DNA from: a virus
Direction: 5' to 3' (one strand)
DNA: 35,823 bases
Virus record (IMG/VR): IMGVR_UViG_3300036780_000156
Location: 1 to 35,823 of that record
Made by a program: the position numbers and the translations under genes. Positions within the stretch are counted from its first letter, which is position 1, and each line of letters starts with the position of its first letter. Positions 26,094 through 34,688 of the stretch are shown here, piece by piece. The notes below the pieces were generated by a model. The model saw only the letters and a program-made list of their open reading frames with translations, ran no database searches and had not been told where the DNA came from.

Positions 26094-27322
26094 TGCCGTA
26101 GTGCACGAAACCATCGCTGACCGTGCTTATCCTGACCGCGAGATTGGATTTGTCCACTCGCAGTCATTATTTCGATCACGCGTAGGATGGAATGTATGGG
26201 TATTCTCGAGCGGGCGAAGTTGATGATCTGATGCTCGGGGACCCCATCGCCCTTGTCGGCGATCAGGATATAGTGGTGGATTTCATCGATCGCTCGGGTA
26301 TCGGTGCTACCGCTAGAGGCGTCGAAGATACCAGGCATAGTATCCTCCGCTTCCAAAAGCCAGCCCATAGCTCGATTGAAATCATCCTTTGTGAGGAGCA
26401 GAACGTCACTACGATCCGCCGCCGATACCATAGACAACTTGTACAAATGAACACGTCTTCGCGTTTTATAATGGAGCAGCTTAGGGTGATTGACCACTGG
26501 AGGCTCACCAAGCGCTCGCCAATTATTAACGGCATCGCGATAATCGCTCGTGACCTTAAACTCGCCGCTGAGGGCTCCTATCATTTTGATATCGTGGATG
26601 AGATCATTGTCGAGATCGCGCGATGCATGGGCGAAGTCATCGCCTACGATGCGTTCGTCGCTGTGAACTAAAATGACTCTCGATGTAAAACCCTGATCCC
26701 AAGCCGATTCGGGCATAAGCCCAATAAGGTTGCTGGGTGTTGTTCCCGAAATGAGATTGACTTGTGGGTGATCAATCTTGATCTTAATGTCCTTACCGCG
26801 ACGAGACTGCGCATAAGGATCGGGGTCGTAGAATGCAGATAGAAGTCCCACCATTTCATCGTCGTATTTGTGCATGAAAGCTGTAAGCTCTTCGGCAGTA
26901 ATGACGGTGTTGTTGTATTCGATTGGAGGATCAGGCAAGCGAGCAATAAAGCGTTTAGAAGCAGCGAGGGTATCAACCAAAGCCGCGCCCGTAAGAGAGG
27001 TCGGCGCAAAGTGGAACTCAGGTAGCTCATTCATATACCTCTTCGCCACCCGAATGATTCGGTTCTTGCCAACGCCGGGGTGGCCCACGATGAAGACGTA
27101 GAGATTGGGGTAGAGTTCGCTGGATGTTTTAAGATAGCACTTCATTTCCATCGCCGAGGCAATGGTGAAGATACCGGCCCATTTGCGGAAGAGCGTCGGA
27201 GATTCGAGATTATCCGTGTGCCCGACGAACGATTCGATCCATGATTCCAACTTCCTCTGGGGCGGTCCGCGTGTCGCGGCCGGTGTAGTCTTTGAGCCCA
27301 TACGGGTTCGATTGTGCATCAT
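26090..27322 (-). CDS. P-loop ATPase/helicase-like replication protein
   Basis: I chose the ATG at 27322 (followed by a second ATG) because an AAAGGGG ribosome-binding site lies just before it; the frame is open to 27355. The 410-residue protein has a Walker A motif at residues 80-87 (GHPGVGKN), a likely Walker B (VITAEEL, about 138-144), and NLISGTTPSNLIGLMP as a sensor-like strand. It resembles DUF3987-type phage helicase-like proteins. It overlaps the polymerase gene by about 110 bases. Its C-terminal 50 residues look like a winged-helix segment. It probably works with the polymerase at the replication fork. Helicase activity itself is inferred. Confidence 0.7.
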   Translation of the reverse strand: MMHNRTRMGSKTTPAATRGPPQRKLESWIESFVGHTDNLESPTLFRKWAGIFTIASAMEMKCYLKTSSELYPNLYVFIVGHPGVGKNRIIRVAKRYMNELPEFHFAPTSLTGAALVDTLAASKRFIARLPDPPIEYNNTVITAEELTAFMHKYDDEMVGLLSAFYDPDPYAQSRRGKDIKIKIDHPQVNLISGTTPSNLIGLMPESAWDQGFTSRVILVHSDERIVGDDFAHASRDLDNDLIHDIKMIGALSGEFKVTSDYRDAVNNWRALGEPPVVNHPKLLHYKTRRRVHLYKLSMVSAADRSDVLLLTKDDFNRAMGWLLEAEDTMPGIFDASSGSTDTRAIDEIHHYILIADKGDGVPEHQIINFARSRIPIHSILRVIEIMTASGQIQSRGQDKHGQRWFRALRH

Positions 27323-28757
27323 AGTCCCCTTTGTTCCACCCCACTTTGCAGTCATAGGGTATTGCTAGTGTGCGTCCGTTTTTGAGTGTGATGGGTTGGA
27401 TGAGGTCCTGCATGAGTTTGGGGATAATGTCGTCTTCGGCTTCGGTGGGGTACATGAACGTCAATGCATCATGATCATGAAGAACAATGATACAATAGTT
27501 CTGTCGCCAGATGTGAAGCATCGCGCGATTGACCACTTTGGCAAGTGTCTCTTGGGGATCATACGCAATGGCCGCACGGATGGTATCGGGTTCGGTCCGT
27601 CGGCCCATGAACCATCGCTTGCGGCCGCCCAGCGAGGTTAGGTGTCCTCGGGTGGCGAGTTGAGTTTGCACCCACGCTTGCCATGCGGTGTGTGCGGGGA
27701 ATGCGGCGAAGTATCGTGGCTGAAACGCCGAAACTACTTCGATTGGGAGTTTGCTTTGGGCGGCGAGGGTTGCGGGTTTGCCTCCATAATTTGAGCCGTG
27801 GCCGAGTTTCTTGCACATGAAACGGTGAGTGTAATGTCGATAGTATGGGGTTTCGGCGAGATGCTTATCTTGCTTGAGTTCACCAGTCCACGGAAGTTGG
27901 GGCCAGCAAATTCTAGCAACAGCAGTGTGAGGGTCTCCAGATTCACAGGCTTCGAGGTAGCGCGGGTCATCAAACAGATTCCATTCTATCGCGCCGACGA
28001 CGAAGGATTCGCCGGACTTGGCGTCACACTTGGCGAACTTGAAGCCGGGGTCACTGACAAAGATAGAACGTAGCGACTCCTCGACATTCTGGAGATTACC
28101 GCCCGTACCAAAAGCCGAAAAGGAAGAGCTAAACCGTCCGGTATCTGTACCCGCAATGTTATAACTTGTCCTGATCCTTCCATCGGGGTCTACCTCCGTT
28201 TTAAGCACTGATATCTTCTTAGAAAGTTCTCGCATAGCTGATATGTGGGCAACAATCGGCTTCGCGACAGTATAGGCCTCCATCTTTTCCAAAGCTCCGC
28301 GATCAACTGTGGGTCGGCCCTGCTTTCGCTGGACAGGTATGCCAAGCTTTTCGTAGAACAGCGTTTGCAGGTCAGCGTTCGAGCGCCAGTTGAAATGGCT
28401 GAGTCCAACGCCCTCAAGCACAATTCGTTCGAGGTTGCGTTCGAGGAGATCAATTTTGTCATAGAACTCATCGATGACTTCTGCCTTTCGATGTTGGTCA
28501 ACGCGGACTCCGCGCAGGGCCATTTCCATTGCTGGCGCTTGAAGGGCTTTGGAGAAGGCGTAGGTATCGGCGGTAATTGGATCGAGTTGTGGATGCATTG
28601 TGTCGAAGACTTCACGGGTGACACAGCAGTCAAGGCCGTTGTAGACCCAATCGCGTTCAGCTTGTGATGGTATATCGTCTGGTGTCGAAGAAGCAGTGTT
28701 TATTATCCTCACTTGTCCCTGCCAATTGTTGCAACCATAGTACGTTCTGATTTCCAT
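27210..28757 (-). CDS. DNA polymerase, family A (C-terminal part of split gene)
   Basis: A 515-residue reading frame with the palm and fingers of a family A DNA polymerase. It begins with the last exonuclease motif (WVYNGLDCCVT, Asp43). Then come TDTGRFSSS and NLQN (about 204-224), and motif A as FAKCDAKSGES (Asp245, Glu250). Motif B is RFMCKKLGHGSNYGG (about 312-326) and motif C is IIVLHDHDAL (Asp428). Motifs A and C differ from the usual DYSQIE and VHDE. The ATG at 28757 lacks a ribosome-binding site and overlaps the upstream exonuclease reading frame by 49 bases in the -1 frame. The protein is probably one half of a polymerase that is split or joined by frameshift. Confidence 0.85.
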   Translation of the reverse strand: MEIRTYYGCNNWQGQVRIINTASSTPDDIPSQAERDWVYNGLDCCVTREVFDTMHPQLDPITADTYAFSKALQAPAMEMALRGVRVDQHRKAEVIDEFYDKIDLLERNLERIVLEGVGLSHFNWRSNADLQTLFYEKLGIPVQRKQGRPTVDRGALEKMEAYTVAKPIVAHISAMRELSKKISVLKTEVDPDGRIRTSYNIAGTDTGRFSSSFSAFGTGGNLQNVEESLRSIFVSDPGFKFAKCDAKSGESFVVGAIEWNLFDDPRYLEACESGDPHTAVARICWPQLPWTGELKQDKHLAETPYYRHYTHRFMCKKLGHGSNYGGKPATLAAQSKLPIEVVSAFQPRYFAAFPAHTAWQAWVQTQLATRGHLTSLGGRKRWFMGRRTEPDTIRAAIAYDPQETLAKVVNRAMLHIWRQNYCIIVLHDHDALTFMYPTEAEDDIIPKLMQDLIQPITLKNGRTLAIPYDCKVGWNKGDYDAQSNPYGLKDYTGRDTRTAPEEVGIMDRIVRRAHG

Positions 28758-29809
28758 GGACCGTGGTCGGTGAAGATTGATCCTAAGTAGGCAAGACCCT
28801 TGAGCGATTCGGGTTGAAGGGAATGTGATAGGAGCATGGTGTCCTCTTTAGTACCCATCACTCTGATACCGTATGATCGCCAGAGGAACGTAACATCGTA
28901 CATCCCGTTGTGGAATAGCTTAGGGATGTTTCGGCTAACAAGAACCCCATTAATAAGTCGCCAAGCATTGGTCTCAGCCTCTCGAGTCGGCCAATAGCTT
29001 CCGCCCTTTGCTCGCTCGTCATCGAATGGTATAACAATCGCCCGGTGTGCGCTGGGCGCCAATCCAATGCAAGTAATGCGTGATCCAGACGTTTCAATGT
29101 CGACAGAAAGAATGTCACATCCGACAACGAAATTGTTGATGAAGTCATTGATATCCTCCAAGGTGGGTTCAATCCAAATCTCACACGCTGGGCGCCGAAC
29201 CTCTGGGAATGCTTGTTCGCGTCCGGCCTTCACCAAGTCCATAATCGTGGTCGGCCTCAATTCCCATTGCCGCAGCACAGCAGCCGGATGAAAGGTCGAA
29301 AGAAGCTTATAACCTGAAACACAGTGAGTGCTAACAGAAGTGGTACCCCGTAGCTTTGAGACACCAGTCCGACCAGCAAGAGCCCAGAGAGCAGTATTAC
29401 CGAGACAGAGGATAAGATTTGGGTCCTGCGCCAGGATTTCATCTGCGAGTCGGTCCAGTTCGGGCTCGAAGTCTCGGCGGACATATCGACTCGGAAGCAG
29501 TGCGGGATACGACGCAATACCCTCAGCTTTTGGCCCGCAGAACCATTCGAGTCGGTTGGCTGGGGGGTGGATGTTGAAGACGTTGGTGCGGTAGAGTTCT
29601 GGGTGCAGTCGCCAGATGGAGTCGATGGATTCTGGTCGTCCCCGGCGGTAGTAGTCATTGATGTACTCCCGATCGATTTGGGTTAGGGTGATGACCTTGG
29701 CCTCGTGGAGCATGCGGAGGAGTTCGATGCCACTGGGGCCGACAAAGCCGCAGGCGATTCGTTCCTCATAGGAGCCCCAAGCTTCGCCGACGATGACGAG
29801 GGGCCTCAA
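28709..29809 (-). CDS. Uracil-glycosylase-like plus 3'-5' exonuclease (N-terminal part of split polymerase)
   Basis: I use TTG 29809, which overlaps the previous stop (TTGA) with a GGAGG site nine bases before it; an ATG at 29857 is the alternative. The 366-residue protein starts with a family 4/5 uracil-DNA-glycosylase-like domain: VIVGEAWGSYEER near residue 5, LCLGNTALWAL near 134, and STFHPAAVLR near 171. It then enters a DnaQ-type proofreading exonuclease, with SVDIETSG (Asp237, Glu239), HNGMYDVTFL (Asn301, Asp305) and KEDTMLLSH (Asp323). Its last motif lies in the next reading frame. The final 12 residues after HGPWKSE look unrelated to the family. Together with the next frame it would give one glycosylase-exonuclease-polymerase chain. 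Confidence 0.75.
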   Translation of the reverse strand: MRPLVIVGEAWGSYEERIACGFVGPSGIELLRMLHEAKVITLTQIDREYINDYYRRGRPESIDSIWRLHPELYRTNVFNIHPPANRLEWFCGPKAEGIASYPALLPSRYVRRDFEPELDRLADEILAQDPNLILCLGNTALWALAGRTGVSKLRGTTSVSTHCVSGYKLLSTFHPAAVLRQWELRPTTIMDLVKAGREQAFPEVRRPACEIWIEPTLEDINDFINNFVVGCDILSVDIETSGSRITCIGLAPSAHRAIVIPFDDERAKGGSYWPTREAETNAWRLINGVLVSRNIPKLFHNGMYDVTFLWRSYGIRVMGTKEDTMLLSHSLQPESLKGLAYLGSIFTDHGPWKSERTMVATIGRDK

Positions 29810-30129
29810 AAGCACTTCTCCTCCACCAGCTTTGCATATCCTACCACATCTTCCCAATGCTGCTTGAGCATGGATTTGCCGCTTAGGATGCGGCTAAACT
29901 TAAGTGCGATCATATCCATCGCCTCGCGTTCAATGTCGCTGAGGGTGTTCCAACCCGGTCCAGCACGAAACATGCGTTTGAAGCTTTGGCTGATGATGGC
30001 GCTGTCCTCGAATGAGCCGTGTGTGGTTTGGCGCTCGTTGAGCAATGGCAATTCATGCTGTGGCTGCGCCGCTACATCGCGCTCGATTTCATCAAGCATG
30101 TCATTGGGGAGTTTGAATGGCTTCTGCAT
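29806..30129 (-). CDS. DUF6378-like phage protein
   Basis: A 107-residue protein from ATG 30129; a GTG one codon earlier is the alternative, and AGAGGA lies about nine bases upstream of the ATG. The pattern RQTTHGSFEDSAIISQSFKR (about residues 33-52), then WNTLSDIEREAMDMIALKFS and SRILSGKSMLKQHWEDVVGY (about 60-99) matches DUF6378-type phage proteins as I recall them. It ends EEKCF with its TGA overlapping the glycosylase/exonuclease start. The function of the family is not known to me. Its place in a replication module suggests a DNA-metabolism accessory. Confidence 0.65.
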   Translation of the reverse strand: MQKPFKLPNDMLDEIERDVAAQPQHELPLLNERQTTHGSFEDSAIISQSFKRMFRAGPGWNTLSDIEREAMDMIALKFSRILSGKSMLKQHWEDVVGYAKLVEEKCF

Positions 30130-30703: not shown

Positions 30704-30904
30704 TTAGAATGGGATGTCATCGTCAGAGGTAGTTGAAGTTGTTGCTCTAGATTGGCGTTGCTCCTTGGTTGCTTCGGTGATTTCGTCCTGAAGTAGCGTC
30801 TCGATCCAACGGTAAAGGTCCTAGGACCCTTGGTTATTGATTCGAGATATTGCTTCAAGGGAAATGGATAGGTTCTTGATACGTAGGGTGACATCGGATG
30901 GCAT
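30704..30904 (-). pseudogene. Small gene with in-frame amber codon and SSB-like acidic tail
   Basis: The ATG at 30904 lies one base after the recombinase stop (TAGAATG). The frame runs 27 codons (MPSDVTLRIKNLSISLEAIS..., ending NNQGS), meets TAG at 30821-30823, and continues in the same frame for 38 codons (DLYRWIETLLQDEITEATKE ... DDDIPF) to TAA at 30704. Both halves look like one charged, helical small protein. DDDIPF is the C-terminal tip by which SSB proteins recruit partners. Either a nonsense mutation or sequencing error broke the gene, or the amber is read through by suppression. Other genes here end in TAG, so the code as a whole is not altered. Confidence 0.5.
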
Positions 30905-30905
30905 T

Positions 30906-31736
30906 CTACGAAATCCGTTTGAGGGTGAGAGCCTTGGGTTTCTCAGGCTTTGCAGGTGGCTCTCGGAGAACTGCAAAAAAGTCGGCGAGGCCCGATGAGA
31001 GATCATAGTCGGCCTTCATATCAAAAGGCTTTGTGTTCTTCAGATCGAACATCGCATTGGCGGTAGTGCGAATGGTGCGCTTCCCGGCCTTGTTCTCACA
31101 TTGGGCCCAGTGGTTGAAATAGCGGGGGATGGTTGGGCCCAAGGCGCTACCGATGGCATTGGGGTAGCCTTTGTTGCGGCCGTCGTCGCCGGTGGAGTAG
31201 CGGACGTGGGCTGAGACGATGACGTTGGTTTTGAACGAACTGCTGGTCAACAATGCAAGTGCCGACTCGACGGCCTGCTGGGCGCTATAGAACCACTGCC
31301 TCGGGTCCTTCGCGGTGGGGTTCATCCCTTCGGCCCAGTCAAAGGCGGCATCGGAGAAGAAGCTGAGGCTGTCGAGGACACAGATGCAGTCCGGTCCCCA
31401 TTCACTGGGCTTGCCAAGATCAATGTCATCGTATTTCCAATGATCGAGCATGCGCATGGCATCGACGAAGGCCTTGGGCTTGTCGACCTTGGGGCCAGCG
31501 GCTGTGGTTTTATAGTTGTCGCGCATTGTGCGGTACTCGACGTTGTCGATCGCTTGTGGGCATTCTTTCATGATATAGGTCTTAAGGGGATCAAGGCCGT
31601 TATCCATGTCGAGGATTCGGAGCTTGTAGCCGCTGCGGACGAGTGGGGCTAAGGCACCGGATTTGCCTGAGCCGGAATCGCCGGTCAATAAAAGTTTCAC
31701 GTACTCATTGCTCTGATGATTTGACAGACTTGGCAT
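30906..31736 (-). CDS. Sak4-like RecA-family recombinase/ATPase
   Basis: A 276-residue single-domain P-loop protein. The Walker A motif is TGDSGSGKS (Gly19 to Ser26) and the Walker B is CICVLDSLS (Asp122). IVSAHVRYS follows, matching phage Sak4 / AAA_24 ssDNA annealing ATPases. The start at ATG 31736 is inferred: the sequence N-terminal of it is the C-terminal coding region of the HNH gene, which overlaps by 32 bases. The N-terminus (MPSLSNHQSNEYVKL) is largely repeated in the HNH reading frame upstream. It sits upstream of an ssDNA-binding-like protein, so the two probably form a recombination unit. Confidence 0.75.
   Translation of the reverse strand: MPSLSNHQSNEYVKLLLTGDSGSGKSGALAPLVRSGYKLRILDMDNGLDPLKTYIMKECPQAIDNVEYRTMRDNYKTTAAGPKVDKPKAFVDAMRMLDHWKYDDIDLGKPSEWGPDCICVLDSLSFFSDAAFDWAEGMNPTAKDPRQWFYSAQQAVESALALLTSSSFKTNVIVSAHVRYSTGDDGRNKGYPNAIGSALGPTIPRYFNHWAQCENKAGKRTIRTTANAMFDLKNTKPFDMKADYDLSSGLADFFAVLREPPAKPEKPKALTLKRIS
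31692..31721 (-). repeat. Peptide repeat NHQSNEYVKL, copy 2 (in recombinase)
   Basis: Codons 6-15 of the recombinase encode NHQSNEYVKL. Copy 1 lies at 32152-32181 inside the HNH frame. The two differ at 7 of 30 bases, all silent, including a TCC/AGC serine pair that needs two changes. Confidence 0.85.
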
Positions 31737-32190
31737 GTTTGTAGATTCCTCTTTTGAATTCGCTAACCCACATTTCGGATACACCAACAGCTTTGGCGAT
31801 ATCCTTTTGCATGTGTCCTTCTTCAAGCATCTTAGTAACCATGGTTCTTTGTTCTATCGTAATAGTCGGATGGCGCCCCATGGTACCAGCGGCTCTAGCA
31901 TCTTGCATGTTATCATAGTGTGTACCTAAGATAAAATGATCAGGATTAATACAATTCTTATTCGGGCACTGATGCCGGAGTTCAGTACCTACTGGACTAT
32001 GCTTTCCTGCCATTCGACAAGTGTATCCATAAACAAGCAAGCCTCCGTGTCTAGCGTATCCATATTTATCTGTAGAACCCATCCAAAGCCAACAACTATG
32101 TTCGTTGACTATTATCGGTTTATTGAATTCAGCAGCAATGTCTTCTGGTCTGAGTTTCACATACTCGTTGGATTGATGGTTTGCAAGGGT
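31705..32190 (-). CDS. HNH homing-endonuclease-like gene fused to sak4-derived start
   Basis: The catalytic part has the pattern of HNH endonucleases of phage homing genes: RPEDIAAEFNKP, HSCWLWMGSTDKYGYAR, then LRHQCPNKNCINPDHF and GTHYDNMQDARAAG. A C-terminal helix-turn-helix follows (ITIEQRTMVTKMLEEG ... AKAVGVSEMWVSEFKRG). The ORF stays open upstream across a transposon remnant (antisense to its transposase). I therefore mark only the part from the breakpoint at about 32190; the actual start is unclear, with a GTG at 32160 as one option. The first codons (32152-32181) encode NHQSNEYVKL, the same ten residues as the recombinase N-terminus. The gene may have lost its real start. Confidence 0.6.
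   Translation of the reverse strand, partial: TLANHQSNEYVKLRPEDIAAEFNKPIIVNEHSCWLWMGSTDKYGYARHGGLLVYGYTCRMAGKHSPVGTELRHQCPNKNCINPDHFILGTHYDNMQDARAAGTMGRHPTITIEQRTMVTKMLEEGHMQKDIAKAVGVSEMWVSEFKRGIYKHAKSVKSSEQ
32152..32181 (-). repeat. Peptide repeat NHQSNEYVKL, copy 1 (in HNH gene)
   Basis: Ten codons identical in protein to the recombinase copy at 31692-31721, directly ahead of the native start of the HNH domain (RPEDIAAEF). The preceding codons T-L-A (32182-32190) also resemble the recombinase start (S-L-S). The match ends at the transposon boundary. Confidence 0.8.
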
Positions 32191-32544
32191 AACGTGGTTG
32201 CCCGCGTCATTGAGAACGTGAAGCAATCCACCTTGGAGGCCTTCGTCAACGAGGCAGTATCCGACAAAGTAAGTTTGATTTGCACCGATCAATGGGTTGG
32301 CTATAGGAACCTCGGCTTTAGCTTCCCCCACGGCACCGTTGACCACGCCAAGCATCAGTATGTCGTCGGAGCCGTCCATACCCAAACGATTGAAGGCTTC
32401 TGGAGCATCTTCAAGCGTGGGATCGTCGGCACATCCCATAACGTGAGCAAGAAATACCTGCACCTTTACGTTGCAGAGTTCCAGTTCCGGTACAATAATC
32501 GCTTCAATGATGATATTTTTGGAGCGGCTATTGAGGGATGCTGA
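32191..32544 (+). pseudogene. IS1595-family transposase, C-terminal fragment
   Basis: About 118 codons of the transposase C-terminus remain. They have VSLICTDQWVGYRNLG with the second catalytic Asp, HAKHQYVVGAVHTQTIEGFW, and FKRGIVGTSHNVSKKYLHLY with the characteristic EFQFRYNNRF ending. These are signature segments of the IS1595/ISXO2-like transposase family. The N-terminal zinc-binding region and first catalytic Asp are absent. The frame stays open leftwards, but only as the antisense of the HNH gene, so no functional transposase is made. The stop at 32542-32544 overlaps the start of the passenger gene. Confidence 0.75.
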
Positions 32545-33374
32545 TGAAAGTGATCCTCGGGATTGTAGTTTTTCTAATTCTTTATCTAGCTCTGACAGCA
32601 TGGATGGGCCTTTCATCGGTTAAAGAGCCAAATCCAGAGTCCGGCCAAAGCAGCACAGAGACAAACGCCAGCAAAGAAAACCACCCCTCCTTGCACCTTG
32701 CGTTCGAACGTGGGTTCGCGCGGCAATGGAGTTTGATACACGGCTTTAAGGACGAGATTATCGCGCTTGGCACTGTCTTTATCGCCATCTTCACTATCAT
32801 TCTCGCCTTCGCTACGGGCTTTCTTTATTTTGCGACTAGAGACCTTGTAAAAGGAGCCGAAGACACCGCCGAAAAACAGTTGCGAGCTTATGTTTTTGTC
32901 AGTGAAGCCTTCATTCGCAATCTGGATGGCCCCGACGCGCCTGCTGTTCACGTCTACGTTAAAAACTACGGGCAGACCCCAGCCTACAAATTCACCAATA
33001 CTGGGGCTGTTAAATTTGTACCCTTCCCCAATAGCGATTTTTCCAGAGACCCACATGGAGATCAGCGAATAGCTGTCACGATAATTCCTCCAAGCGGGAG
33101 TTCGGCTGCGGTCGTCGATTTGCCGATCAAAATAACTCCGGAAATTAAAGACCAGCTCAAGACCGGGAATCGCGCGATTTACGCCTTCGGAGTTCTCGAA
33201 TACGAGGATGCCTTTGAAAATTCCTGGATCGTCAATTATCGGTTCATATTCGGTGGGGATGCTGGCACTCGGATATTTGAGCGCGACGGCGTCCGCCTCG
33301 GCGCAATGGCTCAAACAACCGAAGGAAACAGCGAACAAGAAAAGAGACACGCCGCCCTGTTTCAGCCACCATAG
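32538..33374 (+). CDS. Passenger membrane protein of the IS1595 element
   Basis: A 278-residue protein starting within the transposase gene (ATGCTGATG; stop and start overlap). An N-terminal TM segment (VILGIVVFLILYLALTAWMG, residues 5-24) and a second at about 74-96 (IALGTVFIAIFTIILAFATG) are followed by RDLVKGAEDTAEKQLRAYV. A soluble beta-rich domain comes next (about residues 118-245; VHVYVKNYGQTPAYKFTNTG). I recognise this layout from hypothetical alphaproteobacterial membrane proteins but not a function. Its codon use and opposite orientation to all neighbouring phage genes support arrival with the transposon. Confidence 0.65.
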   Translation: MLMKVILGIVVFLILYLALTAWMGLSSVKEPNPESGQSSTETNASKENHPSLHLAFERGFARQWSLIHGFKDEIIALGTVFIAIFTIILAFATGFLYFATRDLVKGAEDTAEKQLRAYVFVSEAFIRNLDGPDAPAVHVYVKNYGQTPAYKFTNTGAVKFVPFPNSDFSRDPHGDQRIAVTIIPPSGSSAAVVDLPIKITPEIKDQLKTGNRAIYAFGVLEYEDAFENSWIVNYRFIFGGDAGTRIFERDGVRLGAMAQTTEGNSEQEKRHAALFQPP

Positions 33375-33404
33375 AGGATTCAATCTACTTCTGTCAAGTA
33401 CGGG

Positions 33405-33572
33405 TACATCGCCCTCGCCATAACCTTGGCTTGGCTTTGGTATAAGACGCACTACGTCCCGAAGAAGCGCATAAGCTTCGGCTTGTGGTGCGAGATAGTC
33501 GCGCTGGCGCTTAAGGTTTTCAATTTCATGAAGGCAACGATTCATCATTTCAACTACTTCTTTGTCGTACAT
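33405..33572 (-). pseudogene. Small phage gene truncated by the transposon
   Basis: An ATG at 33572 with an excellent AGGAG site eight bases upstream opens a frame coding MYDKEVVEMMNRCLHEIENL, then a helical, charged stretch ending near IPKPSQGYGEG. At about 33405-33411 this meets the transposon. The frame stays open on the minus strand through the element to a stop at 32613 and so encodes a chimeric product up to 319 residues long, antisense to the passenger gene. The true 3' end is lost. The intact protein would have been a small helical, probably coiled-coil, early protein; its function is unknown. Confidence 0.6.
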
Positions 33573-33666
33573 TAATGTATCTCCTAAACAATTCCTCAAG
33601 CACGAGGAAGTTGAACCATTGCGCGGCGAGATGTTTGAGCCGGTCCATTAGCTCAGCGTCGGTCAT
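33550..33666 (-). CDS. Small coupled protein downstream of exonuclease
   Basis: A 38-codon frame whose ATG overlaps the exonuclease stop (ATGA at 33663-33666). It encodes MTDAELMDRLKHLAAQWFNF, then LVLEELFRRYINVRQRSS, a compact helical and charged protein. It overlaps the start of the transposon-truncated gene by 23 bases. No ribosome-binding site of note is seen, so translation would rely on coupling. It is short enough to be chance; overlap and composition are the only support. Confidence 0.45.
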   Translation of the reverse strand: MTDAELMDRLKHLAAQWFNFLVLEELFRRYINVRQRSS

Positions 33667-34688
33667 CTGGGTTTGAGGGGATTCCACCTTTCACTCTCCT
33701 CTAATTTGTCAAATGATGCCTTGAGATATTGCTCGCGGACCTGTGGGGACTTGCTGCAGACTTCGCGAAACTTGCATCCGCCGAACTTATCGCATGCTGT
33801 GTCGTTTTGGGGCCAGTAGCCGGCGGTGGCATAAGTCTCGGCCTGATGAAGCCAAAAGCGCAGGTCTTGAAGCCATTCGGTTAGTTGGTCCTCGGTGCGA
33901 TAGGTGAAGCCGCGTTGAAAAGCGTTGGGCTTCTCAAGTAGCACCTGTGCGGCGTCGATGATCACGCCCTTAATCGGCGAATGCAGCACCGTCTTCCCCG
34001 CGAGAGTGTAGAGTGTCATCTGGTTATTTGGGGCCCATTGGTTGAAGTAATAGGACGACAGTGTTTGGACCGAAGTCTTGCGGTCCATCACATACAATCC
34101 ACTCTGGAAATCGACGACACGGTCGAGGTGGCCGCAGAGGAGATAGGGCTGGACGACAGCACCAATGTCCTCACCAATAGGAGCTGTATGTTCATTTAAT
34201 GTTGTCGCTTGGGGCCCCCAATCCAATGCAAATCTGAAGCTCAATTCCACTGTCGGTTCGCCGTTCTCTAGGATGAAGGTCTCCGCGGGATCATCTACGA
34301 AATGATCGAGATAATCTATAACCAGTCCGGCGATGGTCTCTCGGTTCTTGTACCTGCCAGCGCGGCTCGTGCGATCGACAGTCCAATTCCACACCCGGCT
34401 ATGAAGCTCGCGGATAGTGTCATGAATAGCGTCATCATGGCGGATTCCCCTTGATCTGGAGATTGCGTAGTCCTGCAGGGCGGTGTGGTATTCGATGCCG
34501 AAGCGTAGGTGGATGGATTCGTCGCGGGAGCCCCAGCCTTCGAGCATTATGTACTGATAAAGTCTTGGGCAAGTCTTGATGTAGCCGAGGCTGGTGCTGT
34601 CCCATGCGAATTGGATGTTGGTGCCGGGCAGGAATGGAGATTGGGTGCCGGTGGTGAGGTGGGTGGGGGAGATGGCGGTGGTCTCCAT
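33663..34688 (-). CDS. PD-(D/E)XK exonuclease, Cas4/RecB-like with 4 Cys
   Basis: A 341-residue protein; I use ATG 34688, which overlaps the preceding TGA and follows AGGAGG. It shows the RecB-family nuclease fold: a His in EYHTALQ near residue 68, YLLCGHLDRVVDF with Asp189, and YVMDRKTS with Asp202 and Lys204. NNQMTLYTL follows as the QxxxY motif (about 223-227). Cys40 (KTCPRLYQY) and Cys299, 305 and 311 (CDKFGGCKFREVC) match the Fe-S cluster cysteines of Cas4/AddB-type nucleases. It lies in a phage recombination module, where such nucleases resect DNA ends for annealing by Sak4-type recombinases. Confidence 0.82.
   Translation of the reverse strand: METTAISPTHLTTGTQSPFLPGTNIQFAWDSTSLGYIKTCPRLYQYIMLEGWGSRDESIHLRFGIEYHTALQDYAISRSRGIRHDDAIHDTIRELHSRVWNWTVDRTSRAGRYKNRETIAGLVIDYLDHFVDDPAETFILENGEPTVELSFRFALDWGPQATTLNEHTAPIGEDIGAVVQPYLLCGHLDRVVDFQSGLYVMDRKTSVQTLSSYYFNQWAPNNQMTLYTLAGKTVLHSPIKGVIIDAAQVLLEKPNAFQRGFTYRTEDQLTEWLQDLRFWLHQAETYATAGYWPQNDTACDKFGGCKFREVCSKSPQVREQYLKASFDKLEESERWNPLKPR

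Follow-up and report, generated by a model that had tools for sequence, protein, structure and literature searches.

The locus described here raises the question of why the start of a phage recombinase gene should be found twice, once on each side of an endonuclease gene. The sequence analyzed is a single IMG/VR virus record of 35,823 nt (35.8 kb; hereafter the window) from a metagenome collection. In an initial annotation, the peptide NHQSNEYVKL had been noticed at codons 6–15 of a Sak4-like recombinase (31692–31721) and again ahead of an HNH domain (32152–32181). Both copies were found at these positions, and the claimed divergence holds: 7 of 30 bases, every difference silent, with a two-base TCC/AGC serine switch among them. 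The similarity between the copy in the recombinase (D) and that beside the HNH domain (U) reaches back to codon 4 (L[S/A]NHQSNEYVKL); over codons 4–15, 27/36 bases and 11/12 residues are identical, leaving 9/36 bases different and one residue change, A/S. Chance similarity was excluded because the local protein match between the copies scored 60, far above the 95th percentile of shuffled controls (28). No exact run common to both is longer than 8 bases. GC content was tried as a discriminator of U and D and was uninformative, both being AT-rich. The features of the region are as follows.

30909–31736, minus strand: Sak4-like recombinase (AAA_24 / PHROG 124), intact, with its ATG at 31736 (Pfam, PHROG and relatives).
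31686–31736, minus strand: copy D, recombinase codons 1–17, a synonymously foreign tract with codons 6–15 at 31692–31721 (codon comparison).
31705–32151, minus strand: native part of the HNH endonuclease, T7 gp2.8-like, with HNH and a putative C-terminal HTH-like region (PHROG, alignment).
31739–31760, minus strand: Shine-Dalgarno-like AAAGAGGA in the 3' end of the HNH gene, codons KRG (sequence ttcaaaagaggaatctacaaacATG).
32152–32187, minus strand: copy U, recombinase codons 4–15 (LANHQSNEYVKL), in the HNH frame and cut at codon 4 (family-typical codons).
32185–32541, plus strand: IS1595/ISXO2-like transposase, C-terminal half, 5' truncated (PF12762, DNA match).
32538–33374, plus strand: passenger gene of the IS1595-type element, a membrane protein (same-place gene in L079).
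33390–33413, plus strand: IS1595-type element, right terminal inverted repeat (match to the 25–26 nt repeats of L069, L078 and L079).

The recombinase begins MPSLSNHQSNEYVKLLLTGDSGSGKSG (minus strand, 31736–30909) and was identified by Pfam AAA_24 (E=6e-9) and PHROG 124, "Sak4-like ssDNA annealing protein" (E=1e-10). Relatives were taken from 61 IMG/VR loci, and starts were compared in the 20 closest whose start lies inside the contig. In all 20 the gene opens with a single copy of M/L/V-[PT]-x-L-x-x-H-Q-S-N-x-[FY]-[VT]-K-[LVM], separated from an upstream PDDEXK exonuclease gene by one or two small genes only, and in none does an HNH gene lie between exonuclease and recombinase. Because these HNH-free relatives, to which the initial annotation had pointed as the relevant comparison, carry the motif once and at the start, NHQSNEYVKL is the native and ancestral recombinase start in this Sak4-like family. 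The converse, also raised in that annotation, that the peptide belongs natively to the HNH family, was rejected, as the HNH relatives were found to be without it. The same comparisons bear on another possibility, that the start was duplicated in tandem on either side of an HNH gene already in place and that both copies then drifted under selection. Such a duplication would need no donor and would place the same ten residues in both copies, but seven silent and zero amino-acid changes in codons 6–15 would demand strong selection on U, a mere N-terminal tail of the HNH protein that its family does not conserve; we consider it very improbable. HNH presence is polymorphic at this one site. The gene is absent here in close relatives, and in the distant relative L055 (1600–2062) a very divergent HNH (28% identical) occupies precisely the space between exonuclease and recombinase, beginning at the PDDEXK exonuclease stop and ending in a 4-nt overlap with the recombinase ATG; HNH genes therefore do settle there. 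No duplicated recombinase start was found in L055. An intron was rejected as the occupant of the interval in the window, which is coding and filled by the HNH gene, and no Rfam intron model matched in 30800–33800.

Which copy is the newcomer was judged from synonymous codon agreement with the other relatives' genes, scored in 17-codon windows and only where the residue is the same. Codons 1–17 of D gave same-codon fractions of 0.19–0.22; the value of 0.19, versus a mean of 0.54 (sd 9%) for the recombinase gene, corresponds to a z of −3.85 that is descriptive because the relatives compared share kinship and are not independent of one another. None of the other 17-codon windows was as low (0/269), and the other 18 genes contained no drop as large, the next being those of L003 (z −2.3) and L006 (−1.8). 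Codons 15–17 (CTT TTA TTG) have almost no counterpart among the relatives; from codon 18 on, synonymous usage returns to normal. Copy U had a same-codon fraction of 0.44–0.49, like the remainder of the recombinase gene. Since the codons of D are foreign to the gene and those of U are typical of it, D is probably an imported start that arrived with the HNH gene, and U the remnant of the resident start. Codon choice near gene starts can vary for translational reasons, which counts against reading D as an import, and the anomaly spans 17 codons only, which counts against homing. A further point against homing is that in L003 the recombinase shows its weaker synonymous drop (z −2.3) over codons 1–17, and no HNH gene is present there.

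The silent differences between the copies had been explained in the initial annotation as recoding that keeps the endonuclease from cutting the rebuilt gene. Pairs of relatives from different lineages with an identical codon 6–15 peptide differ from each other by 7, 7 and 8 bases (close pairs, 0–2), so that seven changes amount to ordinary allele divergence, and the AGC serine at the switch position also occurs in L006 and L007, both of which are without the HNH gene. Selection against self-cutting was not supported as the source of the silent changes. Selection of a silently changed start that the endonuclease would spare does accord with the silence of 7/7 differences and with D diverging more in its codons than any other stretch of the gene; against it stand the number and kind of the changes, which are those of ordinary alleles down to the AGC serine of HNH-free relatives, the extension of the odd tract two codons beyond the duplicated part, and the insertion itself, which alone would already split a site at codon 15/16. 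We regard such self-protection as improbable. Because the divergence of U and D equals that between phages, and because the atypical codons extend as far as codon 17, two past the end of the duplicated part at codon 15, a donor allele or conversion tract fits these sequences better than purposeful recoding; foreign codons continuing two past the left junction are the residue expected if a tract of the donor allele had been copied in by conversion. The proposal that the HNH 3' end supplied a new, recoded start is retained as to the replacement start, which D probably is, but its deliberate recoding is unsupported. Similarly, the HNH gene joins codon 15 in frame, in keeping with a gene that landed after that codon, but the odd tract extends to codon 17.

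The ORF labeled HNH encodes 303 aa (31705–32616), with HNH sequence only from 31705 to about 32185. This part matched PHROG 1872, 826 and 6254 (E~1e-14), showed similarity to 1157 phage records, and has a GC content of 42% versus 55.6% for the window. Like T7 gp2.8-like HNH proteins (PHROG 1872), it contains an HNH core, H-x-C...C-x-N-P-x-H...N..D (RHQCPNKNCINPDHF...DNMQD), which was aligned with T7 2.8 and others; a C-terminal HTH-like region may also be present, several sub-threshold HTH matches falling at ORF residues 247–293. A His in the strand before the core, not known to be required, is present in 9/9 aligned relatives; the window protein reads VYGYTCR, without it, and its activity is uncertain because this conserved residue is missing. 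A match of the HNH N-terminus to L068 ("MRPQDIAAEFNK") was treated as chance, since it spans 12 residues, stands alone and lies in an AT-rich contig.

The HNH ORF overlaps the recombinase by 32 nt in a different frame (31705–31736), as first described, and the recombinase ATG lies ~10 nt beyond the Shine-Dalgarno-like sequence that the HNH gene encodes. This arrangement was surveyed in 19 sampled phage loci in which a gp2.8-like HNH is followed by a same-strand gene. In 9/19 the HNH overlaps the next gene's start by 1–37 nt, examples being T7 2.8/3 (20 nt, with the next Shine-Dalgarno inside the HNH gene, like the window), KP13MC5-2 (37), Ro45lw (19) and phi1_146039 (17). Nearly all overlapping cases have a purine-rich ribosome-binding site within the codons of a conserved C-terminal K-R/K-G or W-R motif, and the window HNH likewise encodes the recombinase ribosome-binding site in its C-terminal motif (AAAAGAGGAatctacaaacATG). 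The next gene's Shine-Dalgarno, sometimes with its ATG, was seen in HNH KRG/WKH codons in L066, L089, L092, L096, L099, L100, L101, L104 and the window. By these comparisons, overlap with the next gene is ordinary for the gp2.8-like family, and a donor start could therefore travel with the HNH gene. The family differs from the window in that a copy of the next gene's start was found at the HNH 5' end in 0/19 sampled loci. The duplicated start is therefore specific to the window locus, and general start-theft by gp2.8-like HNH genes was rejected on the 19 loci sampled. Searches for the fused form among viral contigs returned none that combines this HNH with NEYVKLRP or ANHQSNEY, and no close HNH relatives were found in genome contigs.

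The original start region upstream of U was removed by an IS1595 remnant that the initial annotation had overlooked. The transposase covers PF12762 positions 50–153 of 153 (E=1e-27; plus strand, 32185–32541), and the DNA of the remnant is 82% identical to the full-length element in L069. Full-length relatives extend upstream of the point corresponding to 32185, which the window element does not; its left terminal repeat is missing, and the right one (33390–33413) matches those of L069, L078 and L079. The junction of the transposase and U falls at codon 4, with CTTGC common to both sides. Over its first ~143 residues, the HNH ORF thus runs antisense to this 5'-truncated element, across the C-terminal half of the transposase and the beginning of the passenger gene. 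The described fusion is real in that the HNH gene is joined to a copy of the recombinase start, but the N-terminal ~143 codons of the ORF are antisense sequence of the remnant. Two HNH start candidates remain, a GTG within EYVKL and an ATG far off at 32616, on the other side of the antisense stretch. The HNH gene was probably left without a normal start codon, and it may be decaying, as the conserved His is absent and the start probably lost.

Related elements occur in large virus contigs (L069, L078 and L079). They are ~1.8 kb long with 25–30 nt terminal repeats, and each has a different ORF after the transposase, mostly membrane-protein-like; that of L079 is a gene 28% identical to the passenger of the window. 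No relatives of the passenger gene were found in plasmids and genomes. A small phage gene (MYDKEVVEMMNRCLHE...) at 33414–33584 is truncated by the IS1595-type terminal repeat.

With three unusual junctions in 2 kb of a single metagenome virus record, an assembly chimera was considered. The exact runs shared by U and D do not exceed 8 bases, so that a k-mer assembler would have had no repeat to jump on, and the type of overlap seen between the HNH and recombinase genes is known from isolate genomes; the chance that the contig is chimeric appears slight indeed.

We lean, with some caution, toward a history in which a homing HNH gene invaded the resident recombinase start and imported a donor start, and was later eroded by an IS1595-type element. 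The architecture, the ancestral start, the atypical copy and its extent, the IS truncation and the overlap habit of the HNH family are observed; cleavage, a homing event, a donor and expression are inferred. The HNH gene would belong to the free-standing homing endonucleases of T7 gp2.8 type, and in its donor it probably lay just ahead of a different allele of this recombinase, with a slight overlap. Entry into the resident recombinase would have followed cleavage or repair near codons 15–17. On the right side of the break, repair from the donor allele would have brought in the HNH gene and donor codons 1–17; on the left side, resident codons 1–15 would have been closed onto the HNH gene by an in-frame illegitimate join. 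The resulting order would be resident start codons 1–15, HNH, donor start and recombinase body, with the old start captured by the HNH gene and the recombinase presumably read from the imported start, its ribosome-binding site lying in the last HNH codons. An IS1595-type insertion upstream would have come later, and a deletion would then have fused the transposase to the old start at its codon 4. In T4-like phages, an excerpt of PMC2988022 describes free-standing endonucleases that spread by break, resection and repair with flank co-conversion, and cleavage sites separate from insertion sites. Against this history, the U-HNH-D form is known from one contig alone, and the contigs searched yielded no example of the donor state, in which this HNH would precede a different recombinase allele.

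The same final architecture would arise at a plain mosaic junction, without any cut, if a left arm reaching recombinase codon 15 had been joined illegitimately to the HNH-recombinase block of another phage, U then being a leftover of the left-hand parent. Phage genomes are mosaic, the adjoining IS junction shows that illegitimate joins occur here, and the divergence of U and D would be that between different phages. A mosaic junction predicts, however, that the whole recombinase accompanies D, and only codons 1–17 are synonymously odd; it would also make the in-frame HNH join a one-in-three coincidence. This origin is rather unlikely.

For the favored homing history, the closest precedent is provided by the mORFs of fungal mitochondria (Glomus sp. 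and Allomyces; atp6, atp9, cox2 and nad3), which replace C-termini (PMC3630166). As in the window, where the duplicated host-gene end comprises codons 4–15 in U and codons 1–17 in D, the endonuclease gene lies within a host gene whose end is duplicated on both sides, and one copy is divergent and apparently foreign, the replacement end being the one used by the host gene. The mORFs differ in affecting the C-terminal end and in encoding LAGLIDADG or GIY-YIG enzymes, whereas the window comes from a phage, its enzyme is an HNH and the end concerned is the N-terminal start. The locus may thus be regarded as an N-terminal mirror-image analogue of mORF replacement, not as a member of that class. The seg and mob genes of T4 offer a second likeness, being described in the excerpt of PMC2988022 as promoterless or host-signal-borrowing cassettes in which control signals of the next gene are embedded in the endonuclease, favoring its retention. 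They differ in that, in that excerpt, the retained signals are promoters and no copied neighbor start is described.

A wider proposition, that phage HNH homing genes can carry a replacement 5' end for the gene they break, is put forward tentatively and is unlikely. At its 3' end the element would hold the ribosome-binding site, the start codon and the opening codons of a host-gene allele. If true, such an element could enter an important gene at its coding start, leave that gene functional and be hard to delete. The locus would then illustrate how homing genes can settle within coding sequence that a phage needs without destroying it, and would be a phage N-terminal counterpart of the gene-end replacement in fungal mitochondria. 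It also points to a general habit of gp2.8-like HNH genes, whose 3' ends often hold the next gene's ribosome-binding site and start codon.

Elsewhere in the window, one ORF (28709–29857) combines a UDG domain with a 3'-5' exonuclease domain, and the ORF that follows and overlaps it (27210–28757) resembles the polymerase region of family A DNA polymerases.
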